Shown here piece by piece: positions 29,391 through 63,732 of a DNA stretch of 64,000 nucleotides. The stretch is from Methylophilus sp. (GTDB lineage: Bacteria > Pseudomonadota > Gammaproteobacteria > Burkholderiales > Methylophilaceae). A program made the position numbers and the translations under genes. Where the stretch lies: contig JAUYRP010000011.1 of NCBI GenBank assembly GCA_030696695.1, forward strand, positions 186,001 through 250,000. Reading direction: 5' to 3'. Numbering within the stretch: the stretch's first letter is position 1; every line of letters begins with the position of its first letter. The notes below the pieces were generated by a model. It was not told the origin of the DNA. It made no database searches and was given only the letters and a program-made list of their open reading frames with translations.

Positions 29391-29432
29391 GTGCGCTATC
29401 GCACTGACCCTTTATTAATAAACGCTTACGCT
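29391..29432 (+). promoter_or_regulatory. Crp-like class II promoter, alpha/beta-hydrolase
   Basis: Perfect operator GTGCGCTATCGCAC at 29391-29404 and -10-like TACGCT at 29427-29432, centre near -41.5. Gene starts 67 bases after the operator. Confidence 0.7.
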
Positions 29433-29471
29433 TTCTCCTCTAAACATGTCTAGATACATAGGAGAATAGAA

Positions 29472-30296
29472 ATGAGTTATCTCAATACCAAAGATGGCAC
29501 CTCGATTTTTTACAAAGACTGGGGTACTGGCCAACCGATTATTTTTAGTCATGGTTGGCCATTAAATTCAGATAGCTGGGAATCCCCTATGCTGTTTTTG
29601 GCTGCCTGTGGTTACAGATGCATTGCTCACGATAGACGCGGTCATGGCCGCTCAAGTCAACCATGGTTAGGCAACGATATGGACACCTACGCCGATGATT
29701 TAGCAGCGTTGATTCATACGCTCAAATTAGACAATGTAGTGCTCATTGGATTTTCGGCAGGTGGTGGAGAAATCACTCGCTACATCGGTAGGCATGGTGC
29801 ATCTAACATTAGTAAAGTGGCGCTTATTTCTGCAGTGCCCCCGCTGATGCTGAAAACTTCTGATAACCCTAATGGTTTACCCATCAAAGCATTTGATGAA
29901 ATGCGCACACTCGCGAGTGATGACCGTTCGCAAATGTACAAAGACATCGCCAGCGGCCCATTTTTTGGTGCAAATCGGCCAAAAGCAAAAGTGTCTGAGG
30001 GGATGATAGATTCATTCTGGCGTCAAGGCATGCAGGCAAGCCACAAGAGCACGTATGATTGCATTCAAGCCTTTTCAGAAACTGATTTCACCGAAGATCT
30101 AAAAAAGTTTGATATGCCCACACTGATTTTACATGGCGACGATGATCAAATTGTGCCGATTGAAGCAGCGGCTCTGCAATCAGCCAAACTGGTTAAAGAT
30201 GCTGAATTGATTATTTATGAAGGGGCGCCACATGGCTTGATTGATACACATAAGCATCAGTTAAACAAAGATTTACTCAAGTTTATTCAAAGCTAA
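29472..30296 (+). CDS. alpha/beta-hydrolase (cofactor-free haloperoxidase type)
   Basis: 274 aa of the non-haem chloroperoxidase/esterase group. [15 protein letters not shown] is the oxyanion loop, [14 protein letters not shown] follows, [12 protein letters not shown] holds the nucleophile Ser, DDDQIVPIE the Asp, and [10 protein letters not shown] the His. Such enzymes hydrolyse esters or form peracids with peroxide; a real oxidative role is not shown. AGGAG lies 7 bases before the ATG. Its promoter has the perfect Crp-like operator, placing it in the stress regulon with katE as neighbour. Confidence 0.88.
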
Positions 30297-30336
30297 GCCA
30301 ATCGAATCCAATCCAAGTCGAACGCAGTTAGTCCTC

Positions 30337-30364
30337 AAAGCCCTCTTTCATAGAGGGCTTTTTT
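30337..30364. terminator. bidirectional terminator
   Basis: AAAGCCCTCT / AGAGGGCTTT stem with a 5-base loop TTCAT and T-run to 30364, between the hydrolase and the convergent glucan synthase. Confidence 0.88.
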
Positions 30365-30369
30365 GTACA

Positions 30370-33300
30370 TTACCTGCTAGTTTCTGCCCGAATAAATACA
30401 TGGACATCATGTTCTTGTTGGTCGTTAAATAGTGGAATCCTATTAGCGCCTCGCTCGGCTGCCCCGTCTGCCATACGCGTTTCAACCTTCATACCATCCA
30501 CCTTTACCTCAGCGAGTTGAGATGCGCCCTCTGGAATCTTGTGAACGGTGATGTGATACATCGTCTGGTGATAGCGATAATGAATTGTGTATTCGGTCCA
30601 ATCTGCTGGAATACAAGGTGAAATGCGTAAGTGATCCACTTCCAAATGCACGCCCAGCAATGTTTCTAGACTTAAACGATACATCCATCCTGATGCGCCG
30701 GTATACCATGTCCACCCGCCTCTGCCTGTATGTGGCTGTGCCGCATAAATATCGGCGGCCATCACATAGGGCTCCACTTTATACCGTTGTATTTCCTCAG
30801 CATTTCTTCCATGATGGATTGGGTTAAGCATAGCGTACAGATCCCAAGCACGAGCGTTATCCCCCATCATGCCATAGGCCATACAGGCCCAAATGGCAGC
30901 ATGGGTATATTGCCCACCGTTCTCACGCACGCCGGGCACGTAGCCTTTGATATAACCAGGTTCAAGGTTCGATTGGTTAAATGGCGGCTCAAGCAATTGC
31001 ACAAGTTGCGCATCATGCCTAACCAAATATTGATTGACAGCCTGCATTGCTAAATGGGCACGCTCTGTGTCACCCCCACCAGAAATCGTGGCCCAGCTTT
31101 GGCTAATCGAATCAATTTTACATTCATCGTTTAATGATGAGCCTAGCGGCGTGCCGTCATCAAAGTAGGCACGACGATACCATGCGCCATCCCAAGAATT
31201 TTCTTCAATATTGCTTCTAAGTTGCCAGGCATGGGCGGTACAAGTATCGGCAAAAGCAGTATCGCCGCGGCTACGTGCCAAGCTAGAAAACAATTGCAAG
31301 TTTTCATATAAAAACCATGCCAGCCACACACTCTCGCCTTTCCCATCACGTCCCACTAGATTCATGCCATCATTCCAATCGCCACACCCCATCAATGGCA
31401 ATTGATGTGCGCCGAATCGTAAGCCATGCTTAATGGCACGTACGCAGTGTTCATACACGCTCACCACCTCGTTAGATCGTTGCGGTTGGTCGTAATAGGC
31501 TTCTTCTTCTGGTTTTAAGGGGCGCCCTTCTAAAAAATGCACCTGCTCATCCAACACCCCAGTGTCGCCAGTCGTGCTCACATATCGGCAGGTGGCATAG
31601 GCCAACCAAAGATAGTCATCAGAAAAATGCGTTCTCACCCCTTGCCCATGTGGTGGATGCCACCAGTGTTGCACATCCCCCTGTGGAAACTGATGTTCCG
31701 CACAACGCAGGATTTGTTCACGCGCTAAATAGGGTGTGGTATGCACAAGCGCCATTGTGTCTTGCAGTTGGTCACGAAATCCAAAGGCACCGCCAGATTG
31801 ATAATAGCCGCTGCGGCCCCATAAACGGCAAGAGATAGTTTGATAGAGTAACCAGCCATTCACCAAGACGTCTAATGCAGGATCAGGTGTTTCCACCTGC
31901 ACAGCATCCAAGGTGTGTCTCCAATACTTCCACACGCCATCCAATGCCTGTCGTGCACCTGCAGGTTCGCTAAATCGCTGAATCAGTTGCCTAGCTTCAT
32001 CTGCACTGCCTGCAGCACCACATATAAATACCACCTCGTGCTCTTGGCCAACTGCCAGCTCGATATGTGTTTGCAATGCAGCACATGGGTCATAACCTGC
32101 ACCGGTTAAGCCAGATAAGCGTTTACGGAACATGGCCGCAGGCGCTTTTAACGTACCATTGCGCCCAATAAATGCAGTGCGATTACCACTGACTGACGAG
32201 GTTTGCCCACTGACTTTAACAAACAACACGCGGTTACCACACTCGCGACCATACGCATTACGCGCAAATAGCGCCCCACTATGCGTATCGGACTCGGTCA
32301 CTGTATGCATGAGATTGGCATGGCGCCATTCACCAAGTACTAGCTCCCAATAGCCAGTTAATGACAATCTACGTGCTCTATTGGATTGATTGCGTAATTT
32401 GATGACCACGAATTTTACTGGCGCATCCATGGCAACGTAGGTATGCATCACAGATGAAATGCCAGACTCCACATGCTCAAACACGCTGTAGCCAAATCCA
32501 TGCCGGCAAATATAGCCAGCCTTGCCACTGGCAGGCGCTGGCGTGGGAGACCAAAATGCACCGGTCTCTTCATCTCGAATATAAAAGGCCTCAGCACTCG
32601 GGTCACTAATAGGATCGTTGTGCCAAGTGGTGAGTCGAAACTCATGTGCGTTCTCTACCCAAGTATATGCACTACCGCTTTCACTGACGACCGTGCCAAT
32701 ATAAGGGCTGGCAATCACATTCACCCATGGGGCGGGTGTAGTTTGCCCAGCGGCTAAGGTAATCACATACTCGCGCCCATCAGCAGTAAAGCCACCCACA
32801 CCATTGTTAAATATGAGTGATGTAGGCGGCAATACATATACTGGCTCGCTGTATATTGGCTGAGTCACTTCAAAGCGATCTGCAGTGCGATCTGCCAATA
32901 CTCTGCGCTCGACTTGCTCAACCAATATTTCTGCAGTATCAGTAAATACAATACGGGCTACTGTGAGAAATAGCACGCGCTCATCTTCTGATAAGTCTTC
33001 AATACGCCGCACAAAAACACCGCCCGGTTGGTTGAAGGTTTTAGCTTCAACGCCAGCGTGTATCAGTCCCATGATTTGGTCTTGCAGCACCGCACGGTAG
33101 CCAGAAAAATCTTCGTTGATAATTACTAAATCTACAATGAGCCCCTTCATACGCCAATAGGCATGGGCTTGTAACACCTGTTTCACCAAATCTATGCGGT
33201 CAACATCACCAACACATAGTAAAACGATAGGCATATCGCCAGACACACTAAAACGCCAAAGCCCAGACTGGCGTAGTTGATTACGCGCAATAATGTTAGG

Positions 33301-36300
33301 CGCAGCCCGGCGCAGCGCACTACTGTAAATCACCGAGCTCGCCAATCGGCCATAGACTTGTGCATCGGCCTCAGTCGCATTGATATGACGCAACACGCCT
33401 TGACTATGAAACCATGCCATCTCATAAGCGCGCTCAATAAAGTGTCTATCACAATATTTACTCAATAACGTGAGCGCAGCCTCGCGCGTATCTGCCACGC
33501 CAGTAATAAAATGAAGTGCAGCAGAAGCATCTGGTGATAAGGTAATGCCACGACGGATGGCAACAATCGGGTCAAGCACAGAACCCGCTGTATTGGATAA
33601 ATGCGTTGAGCTATTGCCATCGTCTAGCATAATTGGATTGGCGAGAGCGCGACCGCGTCCAATGAATTTTGCGCGGTCCGTTTCATAAGAGGCCTCTTCA
33701 CTCACAATATCTGGTGCTGCTAACAAGTGGAACATCCACGGGGTATGTTCACCGGGTGTACGTGGACGGCGTGTACAAAGTATTGCATTCCGCTCAGGCA
33801 AGATTTCGGTTTGCACAAACAAGTTGCTAAAAGCGCGATGCGATATATCGCTACTCAAGGTTGCCAGCACTACTTCTGCGTAGCTCGTCACCTCAATATG
33901 ACGTGTTCTGGAAGATAAATTAGTCAGCGTTACGCGGCGAATTTCAACATCGTCTTCAGGAGAAACCGCGATCTCCGTATGCGATTCAATCGCATCATCA
34001 CGACGACGATACTCTGCCCGCCCTTGCACAAAAATGGCCTCGTAATGATCTGACTTGGTGAGTGTGGGTTGATAGGTACTGGACCAATAATGCCCGCTGT
34101 CGCTATCACGCAAATAAATAAAGGTACCGTGGCTGTCGCTCGTGGTGTCCTCGCGCCAACGGGTCACGGCTAAATCGCCCCAACGGCTGTAGCCTCCTCC
34201 CGCATTGCTTGCCATCACATGATATCGACCATTCGACAATAAATGGACTTCTGGAATCGCCGAATTAGGATTGGTAAACACGCGCATGATGCCAGAGGTA
34301 TCTGGAGCAGGAGATTTTGCTGCTGCGGTGACTTCTGACATGTGCGGGTGTAAAGTGGCGCCACGTTTCGGCACGCGCTCTTGCAGCAACAGTTCGGTGG
34401 CCTTGACTAAAGGCGTTGACATAAACCGTCTTTGCATAGGTTTGTTGTGTATCACATGGTCAAACGCCAACAAACTCATGCCTTGATGATGCGCCATAAA
34501 AGAACGAACGACCGCATGCGCTTTGCCTCTTGGTACGCGAGAAGGCGTGTAATCAATCGCCTCAAAAAATCCATAATCTCCAAGAAAACCTGCTTCTGCC
34601 AATGCTTTTAAATTTTGACAAGCTTCTTTAGGCATCACCATCAGCGCTAATGCACTGGCATAAGGTGCAATAACCAAATCCTCACCTAAGCCGCGCTTAA
34701 ACCCCAAGCCGGGTATGCCAAATGCTCGATATTGGTAAATTTGGCTGGCATCAGTAGTGTTATAGCCAGACTCGGAAATGCCCCAAGGCACGCCACGTTG
34801 GCGGCCGTATTCAATTTGACGCAACACTACGGTTTTGCAGGTTTGTCCCAGTAGCGTGCTGTCATAATCCTGCATGAGTAATCTGGGCATCAGATACTCA
34901 AACATTGAGCCACTCCACGAAATCAGGCTCACATCGCCAGCATGGCTGGTGAGTAATCGTCCAAGTGTAAACCAATGTTTTTGCGGCACTTTGCCTTCCG
35001 CAATCAACAGAAAACTCGCCAAACGCGCTTCAGATGCCAGCAAGTCATAGCAAGAAGGGTCACGTCGACGTTCGCCCACATCATAGCCAATACTCAACAA
35101 ATCGCGTGAGGTATCGTATAAAAACTCAAAATCCATCACCGCCAGCTGGCGGCAATGTTCAATCAAGGCATCCAGCATTTTTAATCGCCCCATTGCCATA
35201 GAGGATGTAGTTTGCGAGGTGTGTTGCTCCGCTAACTGCGTTAATGTTGGTATCTCACCCACCGTAATGTTGCCATTGGTAAGCAATCCAATTTCTTCAC
35301 TCCATGCATGACATTGTTGATGGAAAGCAAGCGCCCAATCATTGAGTGGCTTTTCTGCAACCACATCGTCATGCAAGCAAATCAGCAGTGCGTCGGCTTC
35401 GATAATCAAGTGATTCAACACGTTGGTAATCTGCTCAAAAGTCTGTGGTTTAAGTGTGGGAATCAACGCCACCTGTAATCTCTCTTCAATCATCTCAAGG
35501 GCATTTGCCATCAATGTCGATGTGGATAAATGTCGATATTCAGCCAATAGGAGAAAAGTATCTTGCAAACCTTGATATATATGGCTTGATAGCACGGGCT
35601 GATGTTTTAGCTCGGTTAATCCGGCTTGCAGGGTAAGCAAGCTGCCCGCTAAATTGCCACTATCGACAGAAGACACATATTGGGGATGTAATGGCTGTAG
35701 CGTGTGTGTGTCATACCAATTGTAAAAATGCCCGTGATAGCGCTCCATCTTTTGCATGGTCAATAAAGTATTGTGTGTCAGGCGTAATAACTCACCGGTG
35801 GTGATGTAACCAAAGTCATGTGCGGCCAGATTTGCTAATAATGACATGCCGATATTGGTAGGCGATGTACGTGAAGCAACAGCAGATACTGGGTATTCCT
35901 GAAAATTATCGGGCGGCAACCAATTGTGTTCTGGCCCAACAAACTGCGCGAAATATCGCCAGGTGCGGCGGGCTGACAGGCGCAAAAAAATGCGCTGACT
36001 ATCGTTTAAACGTGGTTCATGATGTTTAAGAGGCCTACTGATCCACCAGCCGATGACCGGGGCCAATAGCCACAAGAATAGCAACGGTGAATAAATGAAT
36101 ATTTGTGTGGATTGACTCTCGTCCAGCCTGGCAAATAAAGCAAACCCTAACAATATTGCCAGTGCAGGCGCCACCCACATTTCCAGAAAAAAATCGACGA
36201 AGGTACGACGTGCATTACGCTTGGTATAAGAACCCAAATGCCATATCAACAAGCCACGACGCGTAAATAACATCCTCACACCTGAGCGTAAAATCGCGTC

Positions 36301-39045
36301 TAGACAAATCATGGCATCATAGGGCAATAAGGCTAACGTCAGCACTGACATGAGTAATGGCCGTACCGCTGCTCTTGCCGTTAATATCCAATGGGTTAGC
36401 CAGTCTCTCGCCTCAGGCTTACGAATCACCTCTATCAAGATAGATAGCACAGATGGAACAAATACTAATCCCACGACCAATAGAATCCACATCCATGTTG
36501 ACCCTACCCCAGACAAACCACCGATTAGCAACAACACCAGTAACGACGGTGACACGAGGCTACGCCTCAAATTGTCGAAAATTTTCCACACAAGCAAAGC
36601 CGTGAGTTGGTTTTGGCGGCGTTTTGATTGCGCCGTATTGGGCACATTTGGGCCAGGCACACTCGGTAATAGCCAACCAGCCAGTTGCCAGTCCCCACGT
36701 ATCCAGCGATGACGGCGGCTGACGTCTATAGCATAACTAGCAGGATGCTCTTCAATCAAATCAATATCACTGACCAGTGCAGAACGCGCATACCCGCTTT
36801 CTAACAAATCGTGGCTAAGAATTAGATTCTCTGGAAATCGCCCATCCACCGCTAAACGAAAGGCATCTACATCATAAATACCCTTACCAATAAACGAACC
36901 TTCACCAAAAATATCCTGATAGACATCAGAGACTTCTCGGGTATATGGATCCACACTGGAATCGCCCGCAAATAATTTGGTAAACCAAGACTGATCTGCG
37001 CTGACCAAGCTGATTGATGCACGTGGTTGCAGAATCGCGTAGCCCTCTACAATGCGACCCTTCTCCGCGTTATAGACTGGACGGTTCAATGGGTGCGCAA
37101 TATTACCAATCAGTTTTTTTGCCGTGTCTCGTGGCAATTGTGTATCAGTATCTAAGGTAATCACGTAACGAATAGATTCAAAAATAGAGGTATCACCCAC
37201 AATGTCTGAAAATGCATTGAGTGCGCCGCCGCGCAGTCTTGCATTCAGCTCTTCCAACTTACCGCGTTTACGCTCATACCCCATCCACACTTGCTCATGC
37301 GGATTCCAAAGACGTGGCCGATGAAATAGGTAAAAAATGCATGGTCTATCTTGTTGATAGGTATCATTTAGCGCTTGAATACCTACCCGCGCATGATTCA
37401 GCAATGGCGCATCTGAAGGCAATGTGCACTCCGTTGCATCGTAATAATCGGTGAGTAATGCAAAATATAAGTTGGGGTCGCTATTACCAAGATAGCGGAT
37501 TTCCAGTGCCTCAATCAGGCGGTCAATGTCTTGCTGGCTACTGAGTTGCGTGGGGATCACGACCAAGGTGCGACTACATTCGGGAATGCCTAAGGAAAAG
37601 TCCAGCCTTGGCAAGGCACGTGGCGGCAATATTAAGGTAGCAGCCAAATTGACCAATGAAATGGCCAGCGCAGACATACACAGCATCACAGGTGCTATAA
37701 ACAGCCAAAAAAGCACATCATCAATAGCAAGGTCTAAAAACTTGGACAGCACTAACCAAGTAGGCAATACCGTCAGTAACATAATCGGCGTGAGATAAAG
37801 TGGCAGTGAGAAATTGCGACTCTTACGAATAATCGCCTCTTGCCATGCAATACGCTTACCGACAGTTAACTCTAGCTGTTGCCGCCCCTGCTCTATTAAA
37901 TAATAGCCAACGTGTGCAGTCCTATCTGCAGAGCCCAAACGATTTGAAGCGTTTTGTGCCAAGGCAATCGCTTCGCGTGCTACACCCAGCTCAGCATGGG
38001 TGCTGTCACGCGCCACTTCTTCAATCACATGTCTGTAGCGATCACGGGTTGCAAAATCCTGAGACGCATACATGCCAGCGGGGTCATCTGTAAGCACATG
38101 TTCTACTGCGCTGAGTGATTCAACATAGGCCTTCCAATCCATTGCCCCAATAAAACGTAAACTACTGATGCTATTAGCTATGGATATTTGATTGGCGGCA
38201 GCATTACGCCCTGCCACTTCGGTCAACTGAGATGCAGTCACTCCCCGCTCTAACAACTGCTGCTCAACCCATGTTTGTACCAACACCATGGCAGGGCCTT
38301 GCGCTTGCAGCCTAGAGTAAAATTCTTCTACAAATGACTCTGAAAGTGGCACATCCGCATTGGCAAACTCTGCCAATAACAGAATAAGTTTATTGGGTTC
38401 TTTTTCTACTGTGGCTAGCATACGGTCAGCCCAGCTAATGGCGGTGTCTAGCTCTTCTCGTCTACAGACAATACGCAAGCCTATACGACGCAAGTTCTCC
38501 AACAAGGCTAATTGCAGCATGATAGGAAACGCCCAAAGCTCTCCCATTTTCAGTGACTCAACCGTTTGATAAGCAGCAATGATATGGGTCACATTGTCGT
38601 TATCGACCCGTCCATCCATATGCGAAATCAACGCCAACGCTACATCATATATACGTGGAAATCCTGCTGACAGACCCTCTGCTAAACGTGGTAATTGACG
38701 ACTATAGCCGAGCGGCAAATGCCGACGTGCTAAATCAATCTGTTGTTCAATGAGGTAAAAATTGTCTAGCAACCAAACCTCGGCTGAGACAATGCGTTGA
38801 CCAGGTACTACGGCGGCAGTCACCACATCGTATGCTTCAAGCAGTACACGTTCATTGTCTGCAAGTCTAGGCAGTAGTTTGTCAGGCCCCGGATTCGGGT
38901 CGATTTTATGCTGGCCCGCCATCATGATTGCGTGATGCTTCAGCTGCTCAATACTAAACAGCTCCGAACGTAATAATTCGGTGTTCCTGTCGGAACGCAT
39001 TGAAATTGCACTGCGTGCCGAATTTAATATTTCTTTGATGATCAT
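30370..39045 (-). CDS. ndvB: cyclic beta-1,2-glucan synthase-like giant protein
   Basis: 2891 aa, the size of NdvB/Cgs. After a roughly 400-residue soluble N-terminus come two membrane helices (410-470), a GT84 glycosyltransferase region (about 500-780, with YVITLDTDTQLPRDTAKKL near 630), a second membrane set (830-990), a glycoamylase-like domain (about 1300-1520, SWSGSMFEYLMPRLL near 1377), and two carbohydrate-binding plus GH94 phosphorylase regions (HWWHPPHGQGVRTHFSDDY near 2462, GDWNDGMNLVG near 2550). It should make and cyclise osmoregulated periplasmic glucan from UDP-glucose. AGGAAAAT precedes the ATG. A Crp-like promoter lies about 120 bp upstream. No glucan exporter gene is seen nearby. 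Confidence 0.85.
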   Translation of the reverse strand: MIIKEILNSARSAISMRSDRNTELLRSELFSIEQLKHHAIMMAGQHKIDPNPGPDKLLPRLADNERVLLEAYDVVTAAVVPGQRIVSAEVWLLDNFYLIEQQIDLARRHLPLGYSRQLPRLAEGLSAGFPRIYDVALALISHMDGRVDNDNVTHIIAAYQTVESLKMGELWAFPIMLQLALLENLRRIGLRIVCRREELDTAISWADRMLATVEKEPNKLILLLAEFANADVPLSESFVEEFYSRLQAQGPAMVLVQTWVEQQLLERGVTASQLTEVAGRNAAANQISIANSISSLRFIGAMDWKAYVESLSAVEHVLTDDPAGMYASQDFATRDRYRHVIEEVARDSTHAELGVAREAIALAQNASNRLGSADRTAHVGYYLIEQGRQQLELTVGKRIAWQEAIIRKSRNFSLPLYLTPIMLLTVLPTWLVLSKFLDLAIDDVLFWLFIAPVMLCMSALAISLVNLAATLILPPRALPRLDFSLGIPECSRTLVVIPTQLSSQQDIDRLIEALEIRYLGNSDPNLYFALLTDYYDATECTLPSDAPLLNHARVGIQALNDTYQQDRPCIFYLFHRPRLWNPHEQVWMGYERKRGKLEELNARLRGGALNAFSDIVGDTSIFESIRYVITLDTDTQLPRDTAKKLIGNIAHPLNRPVYNAEKGRIVEGYAILQPRASISLVSADQSWFTKLFAGDSSVDPYTREVSDVYQDIFGEGSFIGKGIYDVDAFRLAVDGRFPENLILSHDLLESGYARSALVSDIDLIEEHPASYAIDVSRRHRWIRGDWQLAGWLLPSVPGPNVPNTAQSKRRQNQLTALLVWKIFDNLRRSLVSPSLLVLLLIGGLSGVGSTWMWILLVVGLVFVPSVLSILIEVIRKPEARDWLTHWILTARAAVRPLLMSVLTLALLPYDAMICLDAILRSGVRMLFTRRGLLIWHLGSYTKRNARRTFVDFFLEMWVAPALAILLGFALFARLDESQSTQIFIYSPLLFLWLLAPVIGWWISRPLKHHEPRLNDSQRIFLRLSARRTWRYFAQFVGPEHNWLPPDNFQEYPVSAVASRTSPTNIGMSLLANLAAHDFGYITTGELLRLTHNTLLTMQKMERYHGHFYNWYDTHTLQPLHPQYVSSVDSGNLAGSLLTLQAGLTELKHQPVLSSHIYQGLQDTFLLLAEYRHLSTSTLMANALEMIEERLQVALIPTLKPQTFEQITNVLNHLIIEADALLICLHDDVVAEKPLNDWALAFHQQCHAWSEEIGLLTNGNITVGEIPTLTQLAEQHTSQTTSSMAMGRLKMLDALIEHCRQLAVMDFEFLYDTSRDLLSIGYDVGERRRDPSCYDLLASEARLASFLLIAEGKVPQKHWFTLGRLLTSHAGDVSLISWSGSMFEYLMPRLLMQDYDSTLLGQTCKTVVLRQIEYGRQRGVPWGISESGYNTTDASQIYQYRAFGIPGLGFKRGLGEDLVIAPYASALALMVMPKEACQNLKALAEAGFLGDYGFFEAIDYTPSRVPRGKAHAVVRSFMAHHQGMSLLAFDHVIHNKPMQRRFMSTPLVKATELLLQERVPKRGATLHPHMSEVTAAAKSPAPDTSGIMRVFTNPNSAIPEVHLLSNGRYHVMASNAGGGYSRWGDLAVTRWREDTTSDSHGTFIYLRDSDSGHYWSSTYQPTLTKSDHYEAIFVQGRAEYRRRDDAIESHTEIAVSPEDDVEIRRVTLTNLSSRTRHIEVTSYAEVVLATLSSDISHRAFSNLFVQTEILPERNAILCTRRPRTPGEHTPWMFHLLAAPDIVSEEASYETDRAKFIGRGRALANPIMLDDGNSSTHLSNTAGSVLDPIVAIRRGITLSPDASAALHFITGVADTREAALTLLSKYCDRHFIERAYEMAWFHSQGVLRHINATEADAQVYGRLASSVIYSSALRRAAPNIIARNQLRQSGLWRFSVSGDMPIVLLCVGDVDRIDLVKQVLQAHAYWRMKGLIVDLVIINEDFSGYRAVLQDQIMGLIHAGVEAKTFNQPGGVFVRRIEDLSEDERVLFLTVARIVFTDTAEILVEQVERRVLADRTADRFEVTQPIYSEPVYVLPPTSLIFNNGVGGFTADGREYVITLAAGQTTPAPWVNVIASPYIGTVVSESGSAYTWVENAHEFRLTTWHNDPISDPSAEAFYIRDEETGAFWSPTPAPASGKAGYICRHGFGYSVFEHVESGISSVMHTYVAMDAPVKFVVIKLRNQSNRARRLSLTGYWELVLGEWRHANLMHTVTESDTHSGALFARNAYGRECGNRVLFVKVSGQTSSVSGNRTAFIGRNGTLKAPAAMFRKRLSGLTGAGYDPCAALQTHIELAVGQEHEVVFICGAAGSADEARQLIQRFSEPAGARQALDGVWKYWRHTLDAVQVETPDPALDVLVNGWLLYQTISCRLWGRSGYYQSGGAFGFRDQLQDTMALVHTTPYLAREQILRCAEHQFPQGDVQHWWHPPHGQGVRTHFSDDYLWLAYATCRYVSTTGDTGVLDEQVHFLEGRPLKPEEEAYYDQPQRSNEVVSVYEHCVRAIKHGLRFGAHQLPLMGCGDWNDGMNLVGRDGKGESVWLAWFLYENLQLFSSLARSRGDTAFADTCTAHAWQLRSNIEENSWDGAWYRRAYFDDGTPLGSSLNDECKIDSISQSWATISGGGDTERAHLAMQAVNQYLVRHDAQLVQLLEPPFNQSNLEPGYIKGYVPGVRENGGQYTHAAIWACMAYGMMGDNARAWDLYAMLNPIHHGRNAEEIQRYKVEPYVMAADIYAAQPHTGRGGWTWYTGASGWMYRLSLETLLGVHLEVDHLRISPCIPADWTEYTIHYRYHQTMYHITVHKIPEGASQLAEVKVDGMKVETRMADGAAERGANRIPLFNDQQEHDVHVFIRAETSR

Positions 39046-39172: not shown

Positions 39173-39233
39173 ACCATAGTGGAGGGGGATTGTAGGGTCT
39201 GTGCGTTATCGAACATAAGCAGACAACCCTACA
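39173..39233 (-). promoter_or_regulatory. Crp-like class II promoter, ndvB-like gene
   Basis: Operator 39201-39214 reads GTTCGATAACGCAC on the minus strand, with TATGGT (39178-39173) at the standard spacing. The operator sits inside a longer inverted repeat, TGTAGGGT (39191-39198) / ACCCTACA (39226-39233). Leader about 120 bases. Confidence 0.6.
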
Positions 39234-40323: not shown

Positions 40324-40542
40324 TTAGTCCACCAGTTGATCAACCGGCTGTTGATGATACCTAAAGTGTTGAGGGTGATAGGGATACAGCTTTCTTCGTC
40401 ACTGCTTGGCAGAATATACATATGCGCATTTCATAAAAGTGAGATACGAATAACACTATGCTTGCATATTTACCGATCATCTGTTCGTTAGCACACACTA
40501 AGCAATACACAACTATGTGCAGAAAAACTAAATTGGTTTTTT

Positions 40543-40584
40543 GTGCGGTAACAAACAGAAGGCGTGCACTTCATCACATACACT
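40543..40584 (+). promoter_or_regulatory. Crp-like class II promoter, 68-aa protein gene
   Basis: GTGCGGTAACAAAC at 40543-40556 keeps 8 of 10 half-site bases; TACACT follows at 40579-40584, the standard position. Gene starts 83 bases after the operator. Confidence 0.5.
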
Positions 40585-51960: not shown

Positions 51961-52701
51961 TTACTCTATTTGCGCAGTTAAATCATTAATGTGGTGATAG
52001 TATCGGTGATAAGCGTTATAGCAACTACAGGCTTCCGCAACCAATAAAGGAATATCCAATATCGTGATTTTGCCTCTGCTGTATTTAATGGCCATTTTCT
52101 GCTGAAGCTGACTTGCCACCTCTGAAATACTGACTCGCCTTACCCCAAGTAAATTTGAGAATAATGCCTGCGTAATATTCATGTGTTTTGAATGTGTATT
52201 GTCATGAATAACGAGGATTAAATAAGCCAGCCGCTTTTCGGTAGGATGAAAGTGATGGCAGCCAACCGCAAGGGCCAGCCTGTTCATTAACACCAATATG
52301 TATCGGCTTAGGATTGTTCTAAATATATTACTTTTGTCGACCAGCTCGAGAAATTGTGTGGCTGGCATACGATAAGCCTCGCCTTCAATTTGCACAAAAG
52401 CGTTACAAGGCGCGACATCAACCCCTAGAAAAAGCGTAATGCCTAGCATGCCATCATTGCCAATCAAACCCGTTTCTATGCTTTTCTGATCTGTTGTCAG
52501 GGATAAAGCAATGACACTGTTGATAGGGAAATAAACATAATCAATTTTACTATTGGGCGTATGCAAGGTTTGATGTGCGTGCAAGGTCACGCGCTCACAA
52601 ACTTCAAGCAATTGTGTCAATTCACTGGTGGGTAAATTGTTGAGTAATCGATTTTTGTTAGTTATTGGTGAAAAGATGTGCAATTTACAGACTTTTAACA
52701 A
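51961..52701 (-). CDS. Crp/Fnr-family regulator C
   Basis: 246 aa, TTG start at 52701 because an in-frame stop lies just before it. YVYFPINSVIALSLTTDQK, LIGNDGMLGITLFLG, recognition helix LLGVRRVSISEVASQLQ, tail ACSCYNAYH. Its DNA-binding helix is more diverged from A and B. No ribosome-binding site is evident, and no GTGCG-N4-CGCAC operator was found upstream. It lies 180 bp from regulator D on the same strand. Confidence 0.82.
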   Translation of the reverse strand: MLKVCKLHIFSPITNKNRLLNNLPTSELTQLLEVCERVTLHAHQTLHTPNSKIDYVYFPINSVIALSLTTDQKSIETGLIGNDGMLGITLFLGVDVAPCNAFVQIEGEAYRMPATQFLELVDKSNIFRTILSRYILVLMNRLALAVGCHHFHPTEKRLAYLILVIHDNTHSKHMNITQALFSNLLGVRRVSISEVASQLQQKMAIKYSRGKITILDIPLLVAEACSCYNAYHRYYHHINDLTAQIE

Positions 52702-52880: not shown

Positions 52881-53627
52881 TTAACTTGCCAGTTGGTTGA
52901 TTGAGGGTAGCAACCGATCGAATTCTGTTTTGACAACAGCGTAGCATTCACAACACTTCTGCTCCATGCCTGTTCTATCCAGCACTTTGATTTTGCCTTG
53001 GTTGTAGTGAATCAGATTTAAGGCTTGTAGCTTTCCAGCCACTTTCGTGACGCCCTCACCGTCCAAACCCAGCATGTTAGCAACAAGCTCGTGCGTCATG
53101 GTGAGTTCATCTGATGCCAATCTATCTAAGCTTAATAATACCCAACGGCATAATTGCTGGTCTACTGAGTGGTGCCGATTGCATACCGCAGTTTGTGTCA
53201 TCTGTGTAATGAGCGCTTGGGTGTAGCGCAACAATAATCGCATGGTTGGACCTGCGCGATTAAATTCGTCTTGTATCAGTTTGGCTTTGAGCCTGTAAGC
53301 CTGCCCCGCATTCTGAACAACTGCACGGCTAGGTGTAGTGCCACCCCCCATAAAAAGTGATATGCCAAGTACGCCTTCATTACCCACTATCGCGATTTCT
53401 GCAGATAAATCATTTTCCATGACATACAGTAAAGAGATGACAGCGGTGGTGGGGAAATAAACGTGATCTAATTTTTCACCTGATTCGTATAAAACTTGAC
53501 CCAGTGGCATTTCGACTAGCTCAAGATCTTCATTAAAACGATTAATATCAATGGCTTTGAGTGCGTTGAGGAGATGATTCTGGTTGTGATTGTGGCTGTG
53601 CGGATTTGAGGCGGGGGTTTGTGTCAT
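52881..53627 (-). CDS. Crp/Fnr-family regulator D with altered helix
   Basis: 248 aa, close to regulator A over its length (HVYFPTTAVISLLYVMEND, VVGNEGVLGISLFMGG, CCECYAVVKTEFDRLLP). The N-terminus is His/Asn-rich (SNPHSHNHNQNH). The recognition helix reads MLGLDGEGVTKVAGKLQ where A has MLGVRREGVTEAARKLQ, so both arginines that should contact DNA are gone. It may have lost or changed DNA binding. Its promoter carries a long palindrome with a -10 of TATAAT. Confidence 0.83.
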   Translation of the reverse strand: MTQTPASNPHSHNHNQNHLLNALKAIDINRFNEDLELVEMPLGQVLYESGEKLDHVYFPTTAVISLLYVMENDLSAEIAIVGNEGVLGISLFMGGGTTPSRAVVQNAGQAYRLKAKLIQDEFNRAGPTMRLLLRYTQALITQMTQTAVCNRHHSVDQQLCRWVLLSLDRLASDELTMTHELVANMLGLDGEGVTKVAGKLQALNLIHYNQGKIKVLDRTGMEQKCCECYAVVKTEFDRLLPSINQLAS

Positions 53628-53660: not shown

Positions 53661-53705
53661 ATTATAGTGGAATATCCCTATATGTCCTACAGCGAACATA
53701 TAGGG
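53661..53705 (-). promoter_or_regulatory. regulator D promoter with long palindrome
   Basis: CCCTATATGT (53676-53685) / ACATATAGGG (53696-53705), a 10-bp perfect inverted repeat centred on a Crp-like core GTTCGCTGTAGGAC (53697-53684, minus). A perfect TATAAT lies at 53666-53661, about 5 bases closer than at other promoters of the set, so control may differ. Confidence 0.5.
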
Positions 53706-54071: not shown

Positions 54072-54293
54072 TCATTTTTTATTATTAACATCGTCGTGTA
54101 TTGAGTCAGCAAACGCATCTATTTGCTGATTAGCCTCATCTTTACTAATGCCATATGCCTCTTGGATTTTTCCAGATAGCTGCTCACGTTTTCCAGCAAT
54201 CACGTCAACCTGATCGTTGGTGAGCTTGCCCCATTTTTCTTGCGCCTTGCCACTCATTTGCTTCCAATTGCCTTCTATGCGATCCCAATTCAT
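54072..54293 (-). CDS. CsbD-family stress protein
   Basis: 73 aa. NWDRIEGNWKQMSGKAQEKWGKLTNDQ and IAGKREQLSGKIQEAYGISKDEAN are the CsbD family core (YjbJ-like). Such hydrophilic proteins rise in general stress; mechanism unknown. It lies 31 bases after the BON lipoprotein gene and before the DUF3309 gene. A related but diverged copy is at 60917. Confidence 0.9.
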   Translation of the reverse strand: MNWDRIEGNWKQMSGKAQEKWGKLTNDQVDVIAGKREQLSGKIQEAYGISKDEANQQIDAFADSIHDDVNNKK

Positions 54294-54324: not shown

Positions 54325-54720
54325 TTAGTTAATGACGAGCTGATTGTTCACCTGCTTAACTTCGGCTACTTGCCTAGCTACTTCTGTCGCTTTTTGGCTG
54401 CTGGCCAATGAGTCTGCACTGCCTGTCAGCATGACTACGCCATCAATAGTCGTGACATTAATATCCATACTGCTGATGGCAGACTCAGCCAAAAATGCAG
54501 CTTTAATCTTGGTGGTAATCATCGCGTCTTCCACTTTAACGCCCGTTTTATCGGAGATCCCTGCACTTGTTTCGTCCTTATACATTTCAGTTTCAGCGTT
54601 AACAACAGCCTGATCTATCTCGTTTTCTGCGACGCCATCTTTATTTTTGTAGTCGCAAGCGCTTAGGCCAACAAGACAAACAAGACTGAATGCCGATAGT
54701 TTGATAAGTGTATTTTTCAT
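54325..54720 (-). CDS. BON-domain lipoprotein
   Basis: 131 aa from the second of two tandem ATGs, which has GGAG 6 bases upstream. Signal with lipobox GLSAC. The BON domain (about 60-130) has DAMITTKIKAAFLAESAISSMDINVTTIDG and GSADSLASSQKATEVARQV. BON domains bind phospholipid or support the outer membrane, as in OsmY. Third-last gene of the stress operon. A relative is at 61428. Confidence 0.88.
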   Translation of the reverse strand: MKNTLIKLSAFSLVCLVGLSACDYKNKDGVAENEIDQAVVNAETEMYKDETSAGISDKTGVKVEDAMITTKIKAAFLAESAISSMDINVTTIDGVVMLTGSADSLASSQKATEVARQVAEVKQVNNQLVIN

Positions 54721-54757
54721 CATTTACTCCTTTGTAATCACAATAAAATTAGTATTT

Positions 54758-55294
54758 TCAAGCTACGCTAATATCTTGATAATTATTAACTGACAGCTTC
54801 ATTACTTCGCTTGCTAATGCTGTTTCTTCTTTACTTCGTGTTTCTACGACCAGGACAACCTGCCCACCTGCAATCGCGTCACGAATAAAGTCTGAAAACC
54901 AACCGTCTTTTTCTTTTGCGCTATTTCTGTTGCTTTTAATAGCCCCTATCGTGGCGCCAGCAGTTGCACCCACTGATGCACCCCATCCGAGCATGGCAAG
55001 CGGTGCCACTAAAGGACTAGCAATAAACAGCGTGACGTTGGCAGCCACTAATGCAATTTGTGCGAAGGCGCCGATGCCTGCACCAACTACAGCGCCCTTA
55101 CTGCCTTTCACTACCATATTCTTTAATACTTCATTACTTTTCGCCTGAGTTGAGGCTTTATGTATGGCTGTATCATTTTCAAAAATTTGCATACGCCTTA
55201 ATGGCAAACCCTTTTCTTTCAGCTGCGTAAACGCAACCAACGCCTCTGCATGGCGTTGAAATATTCCTGATACATGATGATGGTAACTAGGCAT
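54758..55294 (-). CDS. DUF1269/YflT-like stress membrane protein
   Basis: 178 aa. GIFQRHAEALVAFTQLKEKGLPLRRMQIFEND resembles the start of general-stress 17M/DUF1269 proteins. A Gly/Ala-rich double membrane segment follows (about 65-125, KGAVVGAGIGAFAQIALVAAN and PLAMLGWGASVGATAGATIGAI), then GGQVVLVVETRSKEE. First gene of the operon with BON, CsbD and DUF3309. The Crp-like promoter lies 72 bases upstream. Confidence 0.75.
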   Translation of the reverse strand: MPSYHHHVSGIFQRHAEALVAFTQLKEKGLPLRRMQIFENDTAIHKASTQAKSNEVLKNMVVKGSKGAVVGAGIGAFAQIALVAANVTLFIASPLVAPLAMLGWGASVGATAGATIGAIKSNRNSAKEKDGWFSDFIRDAIAGGQVVLVVETRSKEETALASEVMKLSVNNYQDISVA

Positions 55295-55337: not shown

Positions 55338-55380
55338 ATGCTAATTCTTGCGTCTCTACATGGTCTGTGCGCTATCGTAC
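55338..55380 (-). promoter_or_regulatory. Crp-like class II promoter, stress operon
   Basis: Minus-strand GTACGATAGCGCAC (55380-55367) with TAGCAT at 55343-55338. Divergent to the DUF2171 promoter; the two operators are centred 49 bp apart. Confidence 0.65.
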
Positions 55381-55415: not shown

Positions 55416-55458
55416 GTGGGCTATCGCACAGATTAGACGCGTCAGCTCCTGCAACAAT
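55416..55458 (+). promoter_or_regulatory. Crp-like promoter, DUF2171 gene
   Basis: GTGGGCTATCGCAC at 55416-55429, with ACAG flanking on the right, and a weak -10-like AACAAT at 55453-55458. Gene starts 77 bases after the operator. Confidence 0.55.
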
Positions 55459-57919: not shown

Positions 57920-58276
57920 TTAATAGGTTTTACCACTCGTTGCATCACGTTCATTTACCGTTGGATTGTCTGTAGTGGTACCAATGGGTTTGTTATTCAT
58001 AGAAGATGCATCGTCAGCAGGTTTACTGGTACTGCTGTTGCTTTTCGATTTATTTTTCAAACTGATCATGCCATCTGTAAGTTTCATTTTGCCAAAAGCC
58101 ATTTCACTGTGCGCCATAAACTCATCTTTAGAAACCATGCCATCTTTATTGGTATCCATCGATTTCAATTCTGACTCAGTGTAATGCGTTGCTTGTTTGG
58201 TTGCAGCGGTTGCAGATACTGCAAATGTGCCCACAATGACTGCACTTAATAACACAATACTGGTTAATTTTTTCAT
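57920..58276 (-). CDS. EF-hand secreted protein
   Basis: 118 aa from the second of two tandem ATGs (GGAG 5 bases upstream). Signal peptide (about 1-24, SATAAT). One canonical EF-hand loop, DTNKDGMVSKDEF, should bind Ca2+; the rest is Ser/Asn/Thr-rich and looks disordered. Periplasmic. Its promoter has a Crp-like operator and a large inverted repeat. Confidence 0.8.
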   Translation of the reverse strand: MKKLTSIVLLSAVIVGTFAVSATAATKQATHYTESELKSMDTNKDGMVSKDEFMAHSEMAFGKMKLTDGMISLKNKSKSNSSTSKPADDASSMNNKPIGTTTDNPTVNERDATSGKTY

Positions 58277-58328
58277 CATAACTCCTTTATGTAATGACAT
58301 TCAATTCAACTGTCGAATGACAAAGTAA

Positions 58329-58370
58329 ATGATAGGTGGCATGAAAAAGGCAGTCTGTACGTTATCGAAC
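58329..58370 (-). promoter_or_regulatory. Crp-like class II promoter, EF-hand gene
   Basis: Minus-strand GTTCGATAACGTAC (58370-58357) with a good -10 TATCAT (58334-58329). Gene starts 81 bases after the operator. Confidence 0.65.
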
Positions 58371-58455: not shown

Positions 58456-58680
58456 TTAATCCTTATCCTTTCCGACTTGATTCCCAATCACCCCACCCAC
58501 CGCTGCGCCACCCACTGTGCCGAGCACTCCGCCACCTGTGAGAACGGCACCAGCAACGCCACCAACACCTGCGCCAATTGCCGTACTTTTATCACGTGTA
58601 GACATGCCGCTACACCCTACTAAACCAATTAGGAGTAACGCTGCGACTACCTTTAATACTTGTGTATTGAATATGTTCAT
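58456..58680 (-). CDS. glycine-zipper 2TM lipoprotein
   Basis: 74 aa. Signal with lipobox LVGC, then AIGAGVGGVAGAVLTGGGVLGTVGGAAVGGVIGNQVG, a glycine-zipper pair as in OsmB/SlyB/YMGG proteins. An envelope lipoprotein that probably inserts into the outer membrane under stress. A Crp-like promoter lies upstream within inverted-repeat element 2. Confidence 0.88.
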   Translation of the reverse strand: MNIFNTQVLKVVAALLLIGLVGCSGMSTRDKSTAIGAGVGGVAGAVLTGGGVLGTVGGAAVGGVIGNQVGKDKD

Positions 58681-58699: not shown

Positions 58700-58796
58700 A
58701 TGTCATTTCAGATGAATGACAGGTTGACCATACAACCTGCCAAACAGCTTGTATGTGCGCTGGCTTGCTTATGCATAAATAATCTGGAAATGACAT
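58700..58796. repeat. nested inverted-repeat element 2
   Basis: Outer arms ATGTCATTTCAGAT (58700-58713) and ATCTGGAAATGACAT (58782-58796) pair with a one-base bulge. Inner hairpin CAGGTTG / CAACCTG (58720-58739). Similar in size and plan to element 1, with no clear sequence identity, and also just upstream of a small envelope-protein gene. Confidence 0.6.
58727..58768 (-). promoter_or_regulatory. Crp-like promoter, glycine-zipper gene
   Basis: Minus-strand GCAAGCCAGCGCAC (58768-58755), one perfect half-site CGCAC, followed by TATGGT (58732-58727) at the standard distance, the same -10 as at the ndvB-like gene. Predicted leader about 40 bases. Confidence 0.5.
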
Positions 58797-58874: not shown

Positions 58875-58915
58875 GTTCGATACTGAACAGACTGTCATTG
58901 TAAGCTAGGCATAAT
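58875..58915 (+). promoter_or_regulatory. Crp-like class II promoter, GGDEF-EAL gene
   Basis: GTTCGATACTGAAC at 58875-58888, palindromic, with CATAAT at 58910-58915. Gene starts 72 bases after the operator. Confidence 0.55.
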
Positions 58916-58959: not shown

Positions 58960-60756
58960 ATGTCTAGTGAAGTGAAAGTGCTTAAGAAAGTGACTGGGAA
59001 TATTCAAAAACATCCTAAAGAGACTGAAGATTCCAATGCCTTGACCTCAAGACCAGTGATATTAGATAAAGCGATGTATAACGAAAAAATTAGAGCGGAA
59101 ATTGCGCTGAATTCTATTAGTGATGCTGTGATTTGTACTGACATCAATGGCATGGTGAATTACCTGAATACTGCTGCTGAAAAAATAACAGGCTGGCCTC
59201 GACAAGATGCGTACGGGCTACCAAGTCATCAGGTGTTTCATATAGTCAACGGTACCACTAGAAAAACACCGCCTAGCCCAGTGGCTTCAGTATTAAAGAC
59301 TAATCAGCCTGTCGGCTTAGCGGCCGATACTCTATTAATCAAGCGTGATGGCACCGAGGCTGCGATTGAAGACTCATCATCCCCTATCCATAACTGGAAT
59401 GGTGAATTGACTGGGGTTGTGATTGTGTTTCATGATGTGAGTGCAGCTCGATCGATGGCGATGAAAATGGCGCATTTGGCACAGCATGATTTTTTAACTA
59501 ACTTACCCAATCGTGTATTACTGAATGACAGAATCGCGCAAGCCATTGAGTCGGCCAAAAGAAATCACACCAAAATAGCGCTGTTATTTTTAGATTTAGA
59601 TAATTTCAAACATATCAATGATTCACTCGGCCACCCGACTGGCGACAAGCTATTAAAGTTAGTCACCACCTCATTAGTTGCCTCTGTCAGGGGCAACGAC
59701 ACGGTCAGCCGTCAAGGGGGCGACGAATTTATCATTCTTTTATCAGACATTAAAAACGAAGCCGATGCTGCATTGACAGCCAACAAAGTGCTAGAACTGC
59801 TGACACTGCCGCACATCATTTCCAATGCTCAGTTATACATCACCACCAGTATCGGCATTAGTATTTACCCTGATGATGGATTAGATGCAGAAATACTGAT
59901 TCAAAATGCAGATACTGCGATGTACCACGCAAAAGACCTTGGCCGTAATAATTATCAGTTTTTTAAAGCCGAGATGAATTTGCGTGCAGTGGAGCGTCAA
60001 GTCACCGAAGTGAATTTATATGCAGCCTTAGATAAACATCAATTTATCCTGCATTACCAACCCAAATTCAATGTCTTGTCCAAAGAAATGATCGGAGTAG
60101 AAGCCTTAGTCCGCTGGCATCATGATGAGTGGGGCGTAGTGATGCCAGACAAATTTATTGCGATTGCTGAAGACACTGGATTAATTATTCCGATTGGTAA
60201 ATGGGTATTGCGTGCAGCTTGTCAGCAAATTAAACATTGGGCTAGCCTGGGCTTAAAAGACATCACCGTTGCAGTCAATATCTCGGCTTTGGAGTTTACA
60301 CAAAAAAACTTTATCGCAGATGTGCAGCAGATACTATTAGAAACCAAAGTCAATGCACATCAGCTTGAGCTTGAAATTACAGAGAGCGTGCTGATGCGGG
60401 ATGCGAAATCCAGTGCAGCTATTCTCTCTCAACTGAAAGAGATGGGCTTAGTATTGGTAGTGGATGATTTTGGTACAGGGTACTCAAGTTTGAGTTATTT
60501 ACGGAAATTTCCAATAGATGTGCTAAAAATAGACCGTTCATTTGTGAATGAAATTGGTACCACTGCGGAAGATGGCATTATTGTGAGTGCAATCATCAAT
60601 ATGGCAAATAGCCTTAAATTAAAGGTGATTGCAGAAGGTGTTGAAAATCAACAGCATTTAGATTTTCTTGTCAGTCATGACTGCACGGAAGCGCAAGGCT
60701 ATTTCTTTAGCCATCCGTTGACTGCGCTTGAATTTGAAAACACCTATATAAACTAA
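58960..60756 (+). CDS. PAS-GGDEF-EAL protein
   Basis: 598 aa, cytosolic. PAS domain (about 45-160: SISDAVICTDINGMVNYLNTAAEKITGW), GGDEF with VSRQGGDEFIILL (about 255), EAL with VGVEALVRWHHDEWG and VDDFGTGYSSLSYL (about 365-595). Catalytic motifs are intact in both, so it may be a synthase and phosphodiesterase of cyclic-di-GMP. AAGGTTT precedes the ATG. Its promoter is of the Crp-like set, so cyclic-di-GMP turnover would be part of the regulon. Confidence 0.9.
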   Translation: MSSEVKVLKKVTGNIQKHPKETEDSNALTSRPVILDKAMYNEKIRAEIALNSISDAVICTDINGMVNYLNTAAEKITGWPRQDAYGLPSHQVFHIVNGTTRKTPPSPVASVLKTNQPVGLAADTLLIKRDGTEAAIEDSSSPIHNWNGELTGVVIVFHDVSAARSMAMKMAHLAQHDFLTNLPNRVLLNDRIAQAIESAKRNHTKIALLFLDLDNFKHINDSLGHPTGDKLLKLVTTSLVASVRGNDTVSRQGGDEFIILLSDIKNEADAALTANKVLELLTLPHIISNAQLYITTSIGISIYPDDGLDAEILIQNADTAMYHAKDLGRNNYQFFKAEMNLRAVERQVTEVNLYAALDKHQFILHYQPKFNVLSKEMIGVEALVRWHHDEWGVVMPDKFIAIAEDTGLIIPIGKWVLRAACQQIKHWASLGLKDITVAVNISALEFTQKNFIADVQQILLETKVNAHQLELEITESVLMRDAKSSAAILSQLKEMGLVLVVDDFGTGYSSLSYLRKFPIDVLKIDRSFVNEIGTTAEDGIIVSAIINMANSLKLKVIAEGVENQQHLDFLVSHDCTEAQGYFFSHPLTALEFENTYIN

Positions 60757-61195: not shown

Positions 61196-61236
61196 TGCTT
61201 AGGCAAAAACAATTCACGGTCTGTGCGCAATCGCAC
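61196..61236 (-). promoter_or_regulatory. Crp-like promoter, second CsbD gene
   Basis: Perfect minus-strand palindrome GTGCGATTGCGCAC (61236-61223), with a weak -10-like TAAGCA (61201-61196). Divergent from the BON promoter, with centres 126 bp apart. Confidence 0.6.
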
Positions 61237-61348: not shown

Positions 61349-61390
61349 GTGCGTTAACGCACAGATACATCCAAGCTGATGTTGAATAAT
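61349..61390 (+). promoter_or_regulatory. Crp-like class II promoter, BON-YqjDEK operon
   Basis: Perfect palindrome GTGCGTTAACGCAC at 61349-61362 with AATAAT at 61385-61390. Gene starts 66 bases after the operator. Confidence 0.7.
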
Positions 61391-62301: not shown

Positions 62302-62307
62302 TCTATT

Positions 62308-62712
62308 ATGGAAGCAGCAGAACCGCATCAAAGTAAAGGATTGTTAGCATCATTGTGTGGATTAGGGGCAACCCTAATTGCCATGATGCACACTCGTTTA
62401 GCACTATTGGGAGTCGATTTAGAAGAAGACGCTAGGCATTTATTTTTAATTGCTAAACTCATGCTCATCACCCTATTTTGCTTTGGTCTGGCAGTTGTGT
62501 TGCTGACCATATTAATCAGCGTGATCTTTTGGGACAATCACCGCATTCTAGTGCTGAGCCTGCTTACAGGATTTTTTGTGTTGTCAGGTATAGTCATTGG
62601 GCAATACACGCATAAAAAAATAAAGCAGAAACCCACATTATTTTCTTCTAGCCTGACGGAACTGGTAAAAGACTGGCAATCTTTGGATATTCACGCAAAG
62701 GATGCATCTTGA
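62308..62712 (+). CDS. YqjE-like membrane protein
   Basis: 134 aa, phage-holin/YqjE-type. LCGLGATLIAMMHTRLALLGVDLEEDARHLF is the conserved amphipathic stretch; two membrane helices follow (about 50-75 and 85-105). Lies 6 bases after the YqjD-like gene. Function unknown; it goes with YqjD in stress envelopes. Confidence 0.87.
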   Translation: MEAAEPHQSKGLLASLCGLGATLIAMMHTRLALLGVDLEEDARHLFLIAKLMLITLFCFGLAVVLLTILISVIFWDNHRILVLSLLTGFFVLSGIVIGQYTHKKIKQKPTLFSSSLTELVKDWQSLDIHAKDAS

Positions 62713-62993
62713 ATGCGTTCACTGAACTCGCAATTAAGCGGCAGCACTTAATTGCAAAGTCGACCCTACAGCGTGAACAGATTGAGTTGTATATTGACGA
62801 TCTACGTAGCCCAATCAAAACACTAGACACAGGAATAAGCGCTTGGAATTTCATCAAATCGCATCCAATCTTGATGCTGGGTTCCACACTCATGCTTTAT
62901 CGGTTACGTTTTGTTTTTTTAACTAAATGGCTAGCGCAGCTAGCAACACTCAGGCAGGTTTCACAATTACTAAAACGTATATTTAGTCATTAA
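62709..62993 (+). CDS. YqjK-like protein
   Basis: 94 aa, TTG start overlapping the YqjE stop as TTGA, so it is translated by coupling. Basic N-terminal helix (ELAIKRQHLIAKSTLQREQIELY) and a hydrophobic segment near 50-70, in the order known for yqjDEK. Its end overlaps the end of the convergent regulator E gene by 11 bp. Confidence 0.72.
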   Translation: MNAFTELAIKRQHLIAKSTLQREQIELYIDDLRSPIKTLDTGISAWNFIKSHPILMLGSTLMLYRLRFVFLTKWLAQLATLRQVSQLLKRIFSH

Positions 62994-63684
62994 GAATCAA
63001 TTGATAAGTGGCTTTATCTATCGCATAGCAACTGCAAGCAACGGCTTCTAACGCTTTAACATTCAAGATTTCTATATGCCCTCTTGCATAGCGCAAGGTG
63101 CGGCTTTTTTGCAACGCACCAGCCGCTTTGGTGATGCCAACTCGCCTAACGCCTAACATATCTGCTAATAACCCATGTGTGAGCTGCATCGAATTGGAAT
63201 GCAAACGATCGTGGAACATCAATATCAATCTAGCCAAGCGCGCTTGCACCACATGAAAATGACCACATAACGAGGATTGTGCTAATTGATTCATGATCAC
63301 ACCCGCATACAAGTGTAAATGTTGCTCAATGGCTGGGTAGCGCGCAATCATTTTCATCAACAACTCAGTGGAGACGCGTAACACCATGCCCTCACTTTGC
63401 ACCACAATAAGGTAGGGGGATTCATTGAGGCCTAACATGGTTTCAACACCCAACATACCCTCCTCGCCAACCAAACACACTTCCAACCCTTTTTCTTCGC
63501 TCTGCTGCAACATCAAAGCCACTACACAGCCCGATGGGAAATAAACATAATCGCTGACATCACCTGGCTGACTGAGCACGGTGCCTGCCGATAGATGCAA
63601 CACGTCACTATGTTTAAGCACTAACTTGCGCGACGGCGCATCTAGGTGATTGATCAATTGATTACTGCATTCAAATGGGTTCAT
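62983..63684 (-). CDS. Crp/Fnr-family regulator E
   Basis: 233 aa from the ATG at 63684 (MNPFECSNQLINHLDAPSRKL). YVYFPSGCVVALMLQQSEEKG, LVGEEGMLGVETMLG, recognition helix MLGVRRVGITKAAGALQ, tail ACSCYAIDKAT. No ribosome-binding site is present, and the predicted transcription start falls on the ATG, so the mRNA may be leaderless. A TTG at 63690 is an alternative. It controls its own Crp-like promoter in the likely scheme. Confidence 0.82.
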   Translation of the reverse strand: MNPFECSNQLINHLDAPSRKLVLKHSDVLHLSAGTVLSQPGDVSDYVYFPSGCVVALMLQQSEEKGLEVCLVGEEGMLGVETMLGLNESPYLIVVQSEGMVLRVSTELLMKMIARYPAIEQHLHLYAGVIMNQLAQSSLCGHFHVVQARLARLILMFHDRLHSNSMQLTHGLLADMLGVRRVGITKAAGALQKSRTLRYARGHIEILNVKALEAVACSCYAIDKATYQLILND

Positions 63685-63690
63685 CCGCAA

Positions 63691-63732
63691 AGACTATCAC
63701 TGCATCTCGCTTCATTCTGTACGCTTGCGCAC
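63691..63732 (-). promoter_or_regulatory. Crp-like class II promoter, regulator E
   Basis: Minus-strand GTGCGCAAGCGTAC (63732-63719) with TAGTCT (63696-63691). With a start at the usual 7 bases after the -10, transcription begins at about 63684, the A of the ATG. Confidence 0.6.

Follow-up and report, generated by a model that had tools for sequence, protein, structure and literature searches.

The palindrome GTNCGNYRNCGNAC, with flanks approximately TMTGTNCGNYRNCGNACAKA, recurs in front of regulator, stress, and envelope genes in the window, i.e., the whole 64-kb stretch of DNA that was analysed (contig positions 186001-250000 of a 2.98-Mb genome), and it is very probably the operator of a Crp subfamily encoded in the same gene cluster. 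According to the mechanism that we propose, the operator would be occupied by a dimer centred at -41.5, over the place of the -35 box; an RRE-type paralogue (Crp1, or perhaps Crp2) is its likeliest constituent. From there the dimer would recruit sigma-70 RNA polymerase to the -10 hexamer that lies 22-24 bases downstream (class II activation). The predicted targets are the regulator genes and genes encoding CsbD-like, BON, glycine-rich, EF-hand, and DUF2171 proteins, a GH94 enzyme, and a c-di-GMP enzyme, and the signal might be a metal or the redox state at residues C143, H147, C220, and C222. Sequence comparisons strongly support the class II reading, and related regulators from numerous other Proteobacteria are accompanied by the same predicted arrangement.

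Spacing between the operator and the -10 hexamer

As a comparison set we used the best 80 of at least 539 confirmed Crp1 relatives, with one locus each; none of the tested 40-base words was common to the window and the 80 loci. In these loci, GTNCGNYRNCGNAC gave 408 oriented flanks (each palindrome was read both ways, so that many flanks point away from their own gene) versus 32, 36, 24, and 18 for four control palindromes made of the same bases in another order, i.e., it was 11- to 23-fold commoner. A hexamer TAnnnT started at +23 after the operator in 67 of the 408 flanks, at +24 in 17, and at +22 in 9, the counts at the other 38 offsets being 0-9. If -12 is taken as the position of the hexamer's first T, an offset of +23 puts the operator centre exactly at -41.5. 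The fixed spacing peak recurred in a held-out set of 19 Methylophilaceae loci (68 kb), which have no overlap with the loci used for training the PWM described below. Here, 40 oriented flanks were found in 12 of the 19 loci and none on reversed sequence, and TAnnnT stood at +22, +23, and +24 in 3, 9, and 2 flanks, respectively, versus 0-3 elsewhere.

Judged from the position of the -10 hexamer alone, the operator centre in both the 80 loci and the held-out loci lies at -41.5, where, according to the accessible part of the source, the activator of class II Crp promoters is established to be centred (PMC5957442). The class II geometry proposed by the initial annotation was thus recovered as a sharp peak in other genomes. 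In line with its further suggestion that a -35 box is not needed, no consensus -35 box was present at spacings of 16-18 in 98 promoters from the 80 loci; matches of at least 4 of 6 bases at these spacings occurred in 10 of the 98, slightly more often than after shuffling of the flanks (4 of 98). It could be argued that Crp-family proteins bound to the palindrome act chiefly by repression or autorepression of a promoter that they overlap, in keeping with operators that often lie upstream of regulator genes and cover the -35 region. A repressor, however, requires no fixed distance, and both the fixed -41.5 spacing and the lack of a consensus -35 box fit an activator. We consider repression improbable and favour class II activation.

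Operators and predicted targets in the window and genome

The 98 promoters, all taken from the 80 loci of other genomes, served to train a PWM, with the window excluded from training, and this PWM was applied to the window and to 15 stretches covering the 16 exact sites outside the cluster. A spacing of 22-24 was imposed on the training promoters, the free tests of spacing being the flank count in the 80 loci and the held-out loci. Twelve operators in the window scored at least 13.8, all within 29262-63732, versus 0.07-0.27 in simulated windows. At a cut-off of 14 there were 22 oriented hits (11 sites) in the window versus an average of 0.13 across 30 simulated windows, and at a cut-off of 12 there were 24 versus 0.53, while the first 29 kb of the window gave no place scoring 8 or more. 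Together with two weaker operators, at 40483-40496 (PWM 11.4) and 53684-53697 (PWM 10.3), the twelve account for the about 14 intergenic palindromes reported initially. A strict TAnnnT at +22 to +24 towards the adjacent gene was found for seven of the 12 operators (binomial p = 3e-7; 2e-5 against a harsher background). The claim that most sites have a -10 hexamer at this distance stands for these seven and, with near matches, for two more, but fails for 55416 and 61223, where a good -10 is absent. Similarly, the proposed distance of 55-85 bases to the gene is approached by eight of the 12 operators, whose centres lie 63-89 bases from the gene start, but not by the other four, at 162.5 (GH94 gene), 41.5 (Crp5), 39.5 (a small ORF with an uncertain start), and 203.5 or 313.5 bases (29262).

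In the left part of the cluster, the operator at 29262-29275 (no strand assigned; PWM 15.5) lies between genes for a catalase (28955, minus strand) and an abhydrolase (29472, plus strand) and is without a clear target; its strict TAnnnT is directed at the more distant hydrolase gene. The operator at 29391-29404 (plus strand; PWM 22.5) has TACGCT at +23 towards an alpha/beta hydrolase gene starting at 29472, and an additional strict TAnnnT on the opposite side, pointing away. One of the best operators, at 39201-39214 (minus strand; PWM 25.0) with TATGGT at +23, stands before the GH94 gene, and the protein encoded there (30370-39045, minus strand) has 2891 residues and is cyclic-glucan-synthase-like. 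The small ORF at 40589-40846 is preceded by the operator at 40543-40556 (plus strand; PWM 13.8), with TACACT at +23, and by the weaker one at 40483. At 41704-41717 (minus strand; PWM 20.7), an operator with TATGAT at +24 is predicted to serve Crp1.

In the right part, the operator at 55367-55380 (minus strand; PWM 26.8), with TAGCAT at +24, precedes the gene at 54758-55294, which is followed downstream by BON (54325-54723) and CsbD (54072-54293) genes and then a 57-aa ORF. The neighbouring operator at 55416-55429 (plus strand; PWM 16.1) precedes a DUF2171 gene (55507), and the one at 58357-58370 (minus strand; PWM 20.9), with TATCAT at +23, an EF-hand gene (57920-58300). A gene read from its sequence as GGDEF-EAL (58960-60756) lies behind the operator at 58875-58888 (plus strand; PWM 16.5), which has CATAAT at +22. 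The operator at 61223-61236 (minus strand; PWM 22.8) stands before a CsbD-like small gene (start 61159) without Pfam matches at 1e-3, and that at 61349-61362 (plus strand; PWM 22.2), with AATAAT at +23, before a BON gene (61428). Finally, the operator at 63719-63732 (minus strand; PWM 21.0), with TAGTCT at +23, has Crp5 as its predicted target. The ATG of Crp5 (63684) is 41.5 bases from the centre of this operator; the -41.5 rule would therefore have transcription begin at the ATG, and a leaderless Crp5 message is possible. For the glycine-zipper gene at 58456-58680, the initial annotation had pointed to a weaker site; TATGGT is indeed at +23, but the site (58755-58768, minus strand) is a weak half-site with a PWM score of 5.0 and is unsupported on its own.

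Across the genome, exact GTNCG-N4-CGNAC occurred at 24 places, eight of them inside the 34 kb of the cluster (Poisson p = 7e-10, somewhat flattered because this stretch was delimited by the sites themselves). The expectation that the motif would exceed random occurrence was therefore confirmed for this local concentration, but not for the genome-wide exact count, which showed no excess over the reversed control (24 vs 85), nor for the window with two mismatches allowed, where 27 sites versus 23.9 expected is chance level. The two-mismatch scan was dropped as evidence for being too unspecific. The 14-base palindrome, counted across 60 family genomes, was likewise too unspecific to use, reversed-control hits outnumbering motif hits in 58 of 60 whether the regulator family was present or absent. 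The two-mismatch count in the window and the exact count across the genome are what would be expected of chance palindromes with loosely picked -10 boxes. Against such an explanation stand the spacing peak in the 80 loci and its recurrence in the 19 loci outside training, the co-occurrence with the regulator family described below, the PWM enrichment in the window, and the geometry of seven of its 12 operators; we regard it as very improbable, and operators with a fixed promoter geometry remain the preferred reading.

Among the 16 exact sites scored outside the cluster, only the one at position 143552 of contig C7 was both strong (21.7) and accompanied by a -10 hexamer (TACGCT at +23); this operator (L124:1453-1466) overlaps an ORF, methyltransferase-like and of uncertain start, at its 5' end. 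Position 70070 of contig C6 scored 20.7 and is without a -10. Just beyond the window, operators were observed before a PRC-barrel-like gene (L117:2905-2918; 17.4) and a second CsbD-like gene (L117:5075-5088; 15.1), both named by eye, and with them the cluster reaches approximately 255 kb on the contig. Most of the predicted regulon is local, around the regulator genes.

In the 80 loci, ORFs were assigned by a simple rule to 95 of the 98 strict-geometry operators. Among the 69 non-regulator ORFs, Pfam matches included Ysc84 (8), CsbD (4), DUF3096, PRC-barrel, and two glycine-zipper families (3 each), and DnaJ, BON, and DUF3309 (2 each), along with many singletons, as counted among the 25 of 44 families listed. 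A candidate operator and promoter architecture, together with a set of predicted targets, thus become available for a large uncharacterised Crp subfamily, and one predicted switch would link numerous genes whose function is unknown (CsbD, BON, DUF2171, Ysc84, DUF3096, and DUF3309).

The Crp subfamily and its association with the operator

Five Crp-type regulators are encoded in the window, all on the minus strand: the RRE-type Crp1 (40894-41622) and Crp2 (46235-46993), the RRV-type Crp3 (51961-52701) and Crp5 (62983-63684), and Crp4 (52881-53627). No operator scoring 8 or more lies in front of Crp2 or Crp3, and Crp4 has the weak one at 53684. Searching the entire genome with a profile recovered the same five and one distant member. 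All five regulators scored above the curated cut-off for the Crp-type helix-turn-helix (PF13545), and all five matched the cyclic-nucleotide-binding-like domain (PF00027) at E = 2e-5 or better, two of them reaching its curated cut-off; none reached the cut-off of an NCBIfam model. The closest relative of Crp1 among the named matches listed is from Methylovorus mays (79% identity). Among solved structures, the best sequence match (E = 4e-10) was within the DNA-binding domain. The Crp1 model (mean pLDDT 92.4) has a Crp fold, and Foldseek placed it nearest to the solved folds of GlxR and Mycobacterium tuberculosis CRP (4cyd, 4a2u; TM 0.75-0.76 by model length).

In an alignment of 137 family members, C143, H147, and E71 were conserved in all 136 rows readable at these positions, and C220 and C222 in all 135. 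The predicted secondary structure puts C143 and H147 where the long helix ends and at the hinge, and C220 and C222 in a tail past the last strands. The signature is missing, by eye, from the distant Crp-type protein of the genome. C143, H147, C220, and C222 are invariant in the Crp subfamily to which the five regulators belong. Such strict conservation hints at a sensing mechanism, and the guess that these residues form a metal or redox site is possible. More tentatively still, the subfamily might represent a separate widespread sensory branch, in which a switch made up of the C143/H147 hinge and the C220-x-C222 tail (metal ion, haem, iron-sulphur, or thiol) would govern binding of the GTNCG palindrome and so activate an envelope and stress programme around the regulator genes; we lean slightly against this extended scheme. 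In Crp4, the near-invariant RR of the recognition helix is gone (RR to DG; LDGEG) and the four cysteine and histidine residues are kept, so it may possibly be a non-binding partner or decoy.

The palindrome (score of at least 9, within 300 bases) was found upstream of 42 of 79 Crp1 relatives (one of the 80 loci was too short), compared with 3 of 79 for a control palindrome; the remaining 37 upstream regions had no site at this cut-off. As the selection of the 80 loci required an RRE-type regulator, both this nearness and the share of RRE among their recognition helices (79 RRE, 29 RRV, 16 RRS, and 8 other or unread) are biased. Crp-family genes made up 26 of the 95 ORFs behind strict-geometry operators (24 with an RRE and 2 with an RRV recognition helix). 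Because 24 of these 26 apparent autoregulation cases are RRE-type and Crp4 lacks the RR, the RRE-type paralogues appear likelier to be the main binders.

Co-occurrence of operator and family was examined in 229 genomes of the class, including the one studied here, with the family called at E = 1e-30 or better and up to 12 candidates scored per genome. This test is independent of the choice of loci, base composition being controlled by the reversed pattern alone. The family was present in 22 of the 229 genomes, and the 16-base operator TGTNCGNYRNCGNACA occurred on average 3.59 times per genome with the family versus 1.03 times without it (p = 4.7e-8). The difference was retained among genomes of at least 2.8 Mb (20 vs 87; p = 1.4e-5), and the reversed control in the same comparison gave p = 0.10. 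At least one copy was found in 22 of 22 genomes with the family versus 104 of 207 without it; that half of the latter carry TGTNCGNYRNCGNACA is attributable to chance hits. Ten family-less genomes with 4 to 7 hits were searched again with all candidates and gave no full-length family member, although one of them contained two short pieces of one. In the nine family-less genomes with many hits that were mapped, the hits were scattered and many were GTCCG. In another genome, eight of nine operators were inside the 90 kb that hold its five regulators.

As the evidence throughout is association, the palindrome might be bound by a different dimeric regulator that accompanies these stress clusters. 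The placement of the operator before 42 of 79 regulator genes and its co-occurrence with the family across genomes argue against this, as do the GT at -7/-6, in the register of the TGTGA of CRP, and a class II spacing typical of Crp/Fnr proteins. Another regulator is thus an unlikely binder, and a member of the co-located Crp subfamily remains our preferred candidate.

Comparison with known Crp/Fnr systems

FNR has N-terminal iron-sulphur cysteines and the operator TTGAT-N4-ATCAA. Crp1, the one member read for this feature, has no cysteine before residue 143, the invariant cysteines of the family being 143, 220, and 222, and the palindrome described here does not match the FNR operator. The accessible part of a report on anr2 of Burkholderia cenocepacia gives TTGATCTCGATCAA as a putative Anr box (PMC9104464). 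FNR/Anr systems such as anr2 are alike in belonging to the Crp/Fnr family and in their association with survival under stress, but their operator differs from the palindrome here. As a possible known counterpart we weighed, and then dropped, the low-oxygen lxa locus of Burkholderia: in the accessible parts of its descriptions it has Anr-type regulators without such a motif (PMC3759415, PMC6127331, PMC9104464). Crp and FNR are absent from the main text of a survey of regulons in Proteobacteria (PMC5343134). In the open-access literature searched for the motif and the family, which leaves most subscription journals outside, we found no description of the operator or the subfamily.

GlxR and Mycobacterium tuberculosis CRP share the fold at 18-20% identity, and we know of no C/H/C-x-C signature in either. 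E. coli CRP has the operator TGTGA-N6-TCACA, with GT at -7/-6. The operator here, GTNCGNYRNCGNAC, departs from this cAMP-CRP site in that positions -4/-3 are CG and position -5 varies, and its predicted targets, unlike those of E. coli CRP, are mostly around the regulator genes. The likeness to class II promoters of E. coli CRP, as far as the accessible part of their description goes, lies in the Crp fold, the palindromic operator, and the centre at -41.5 (PMC5957442).
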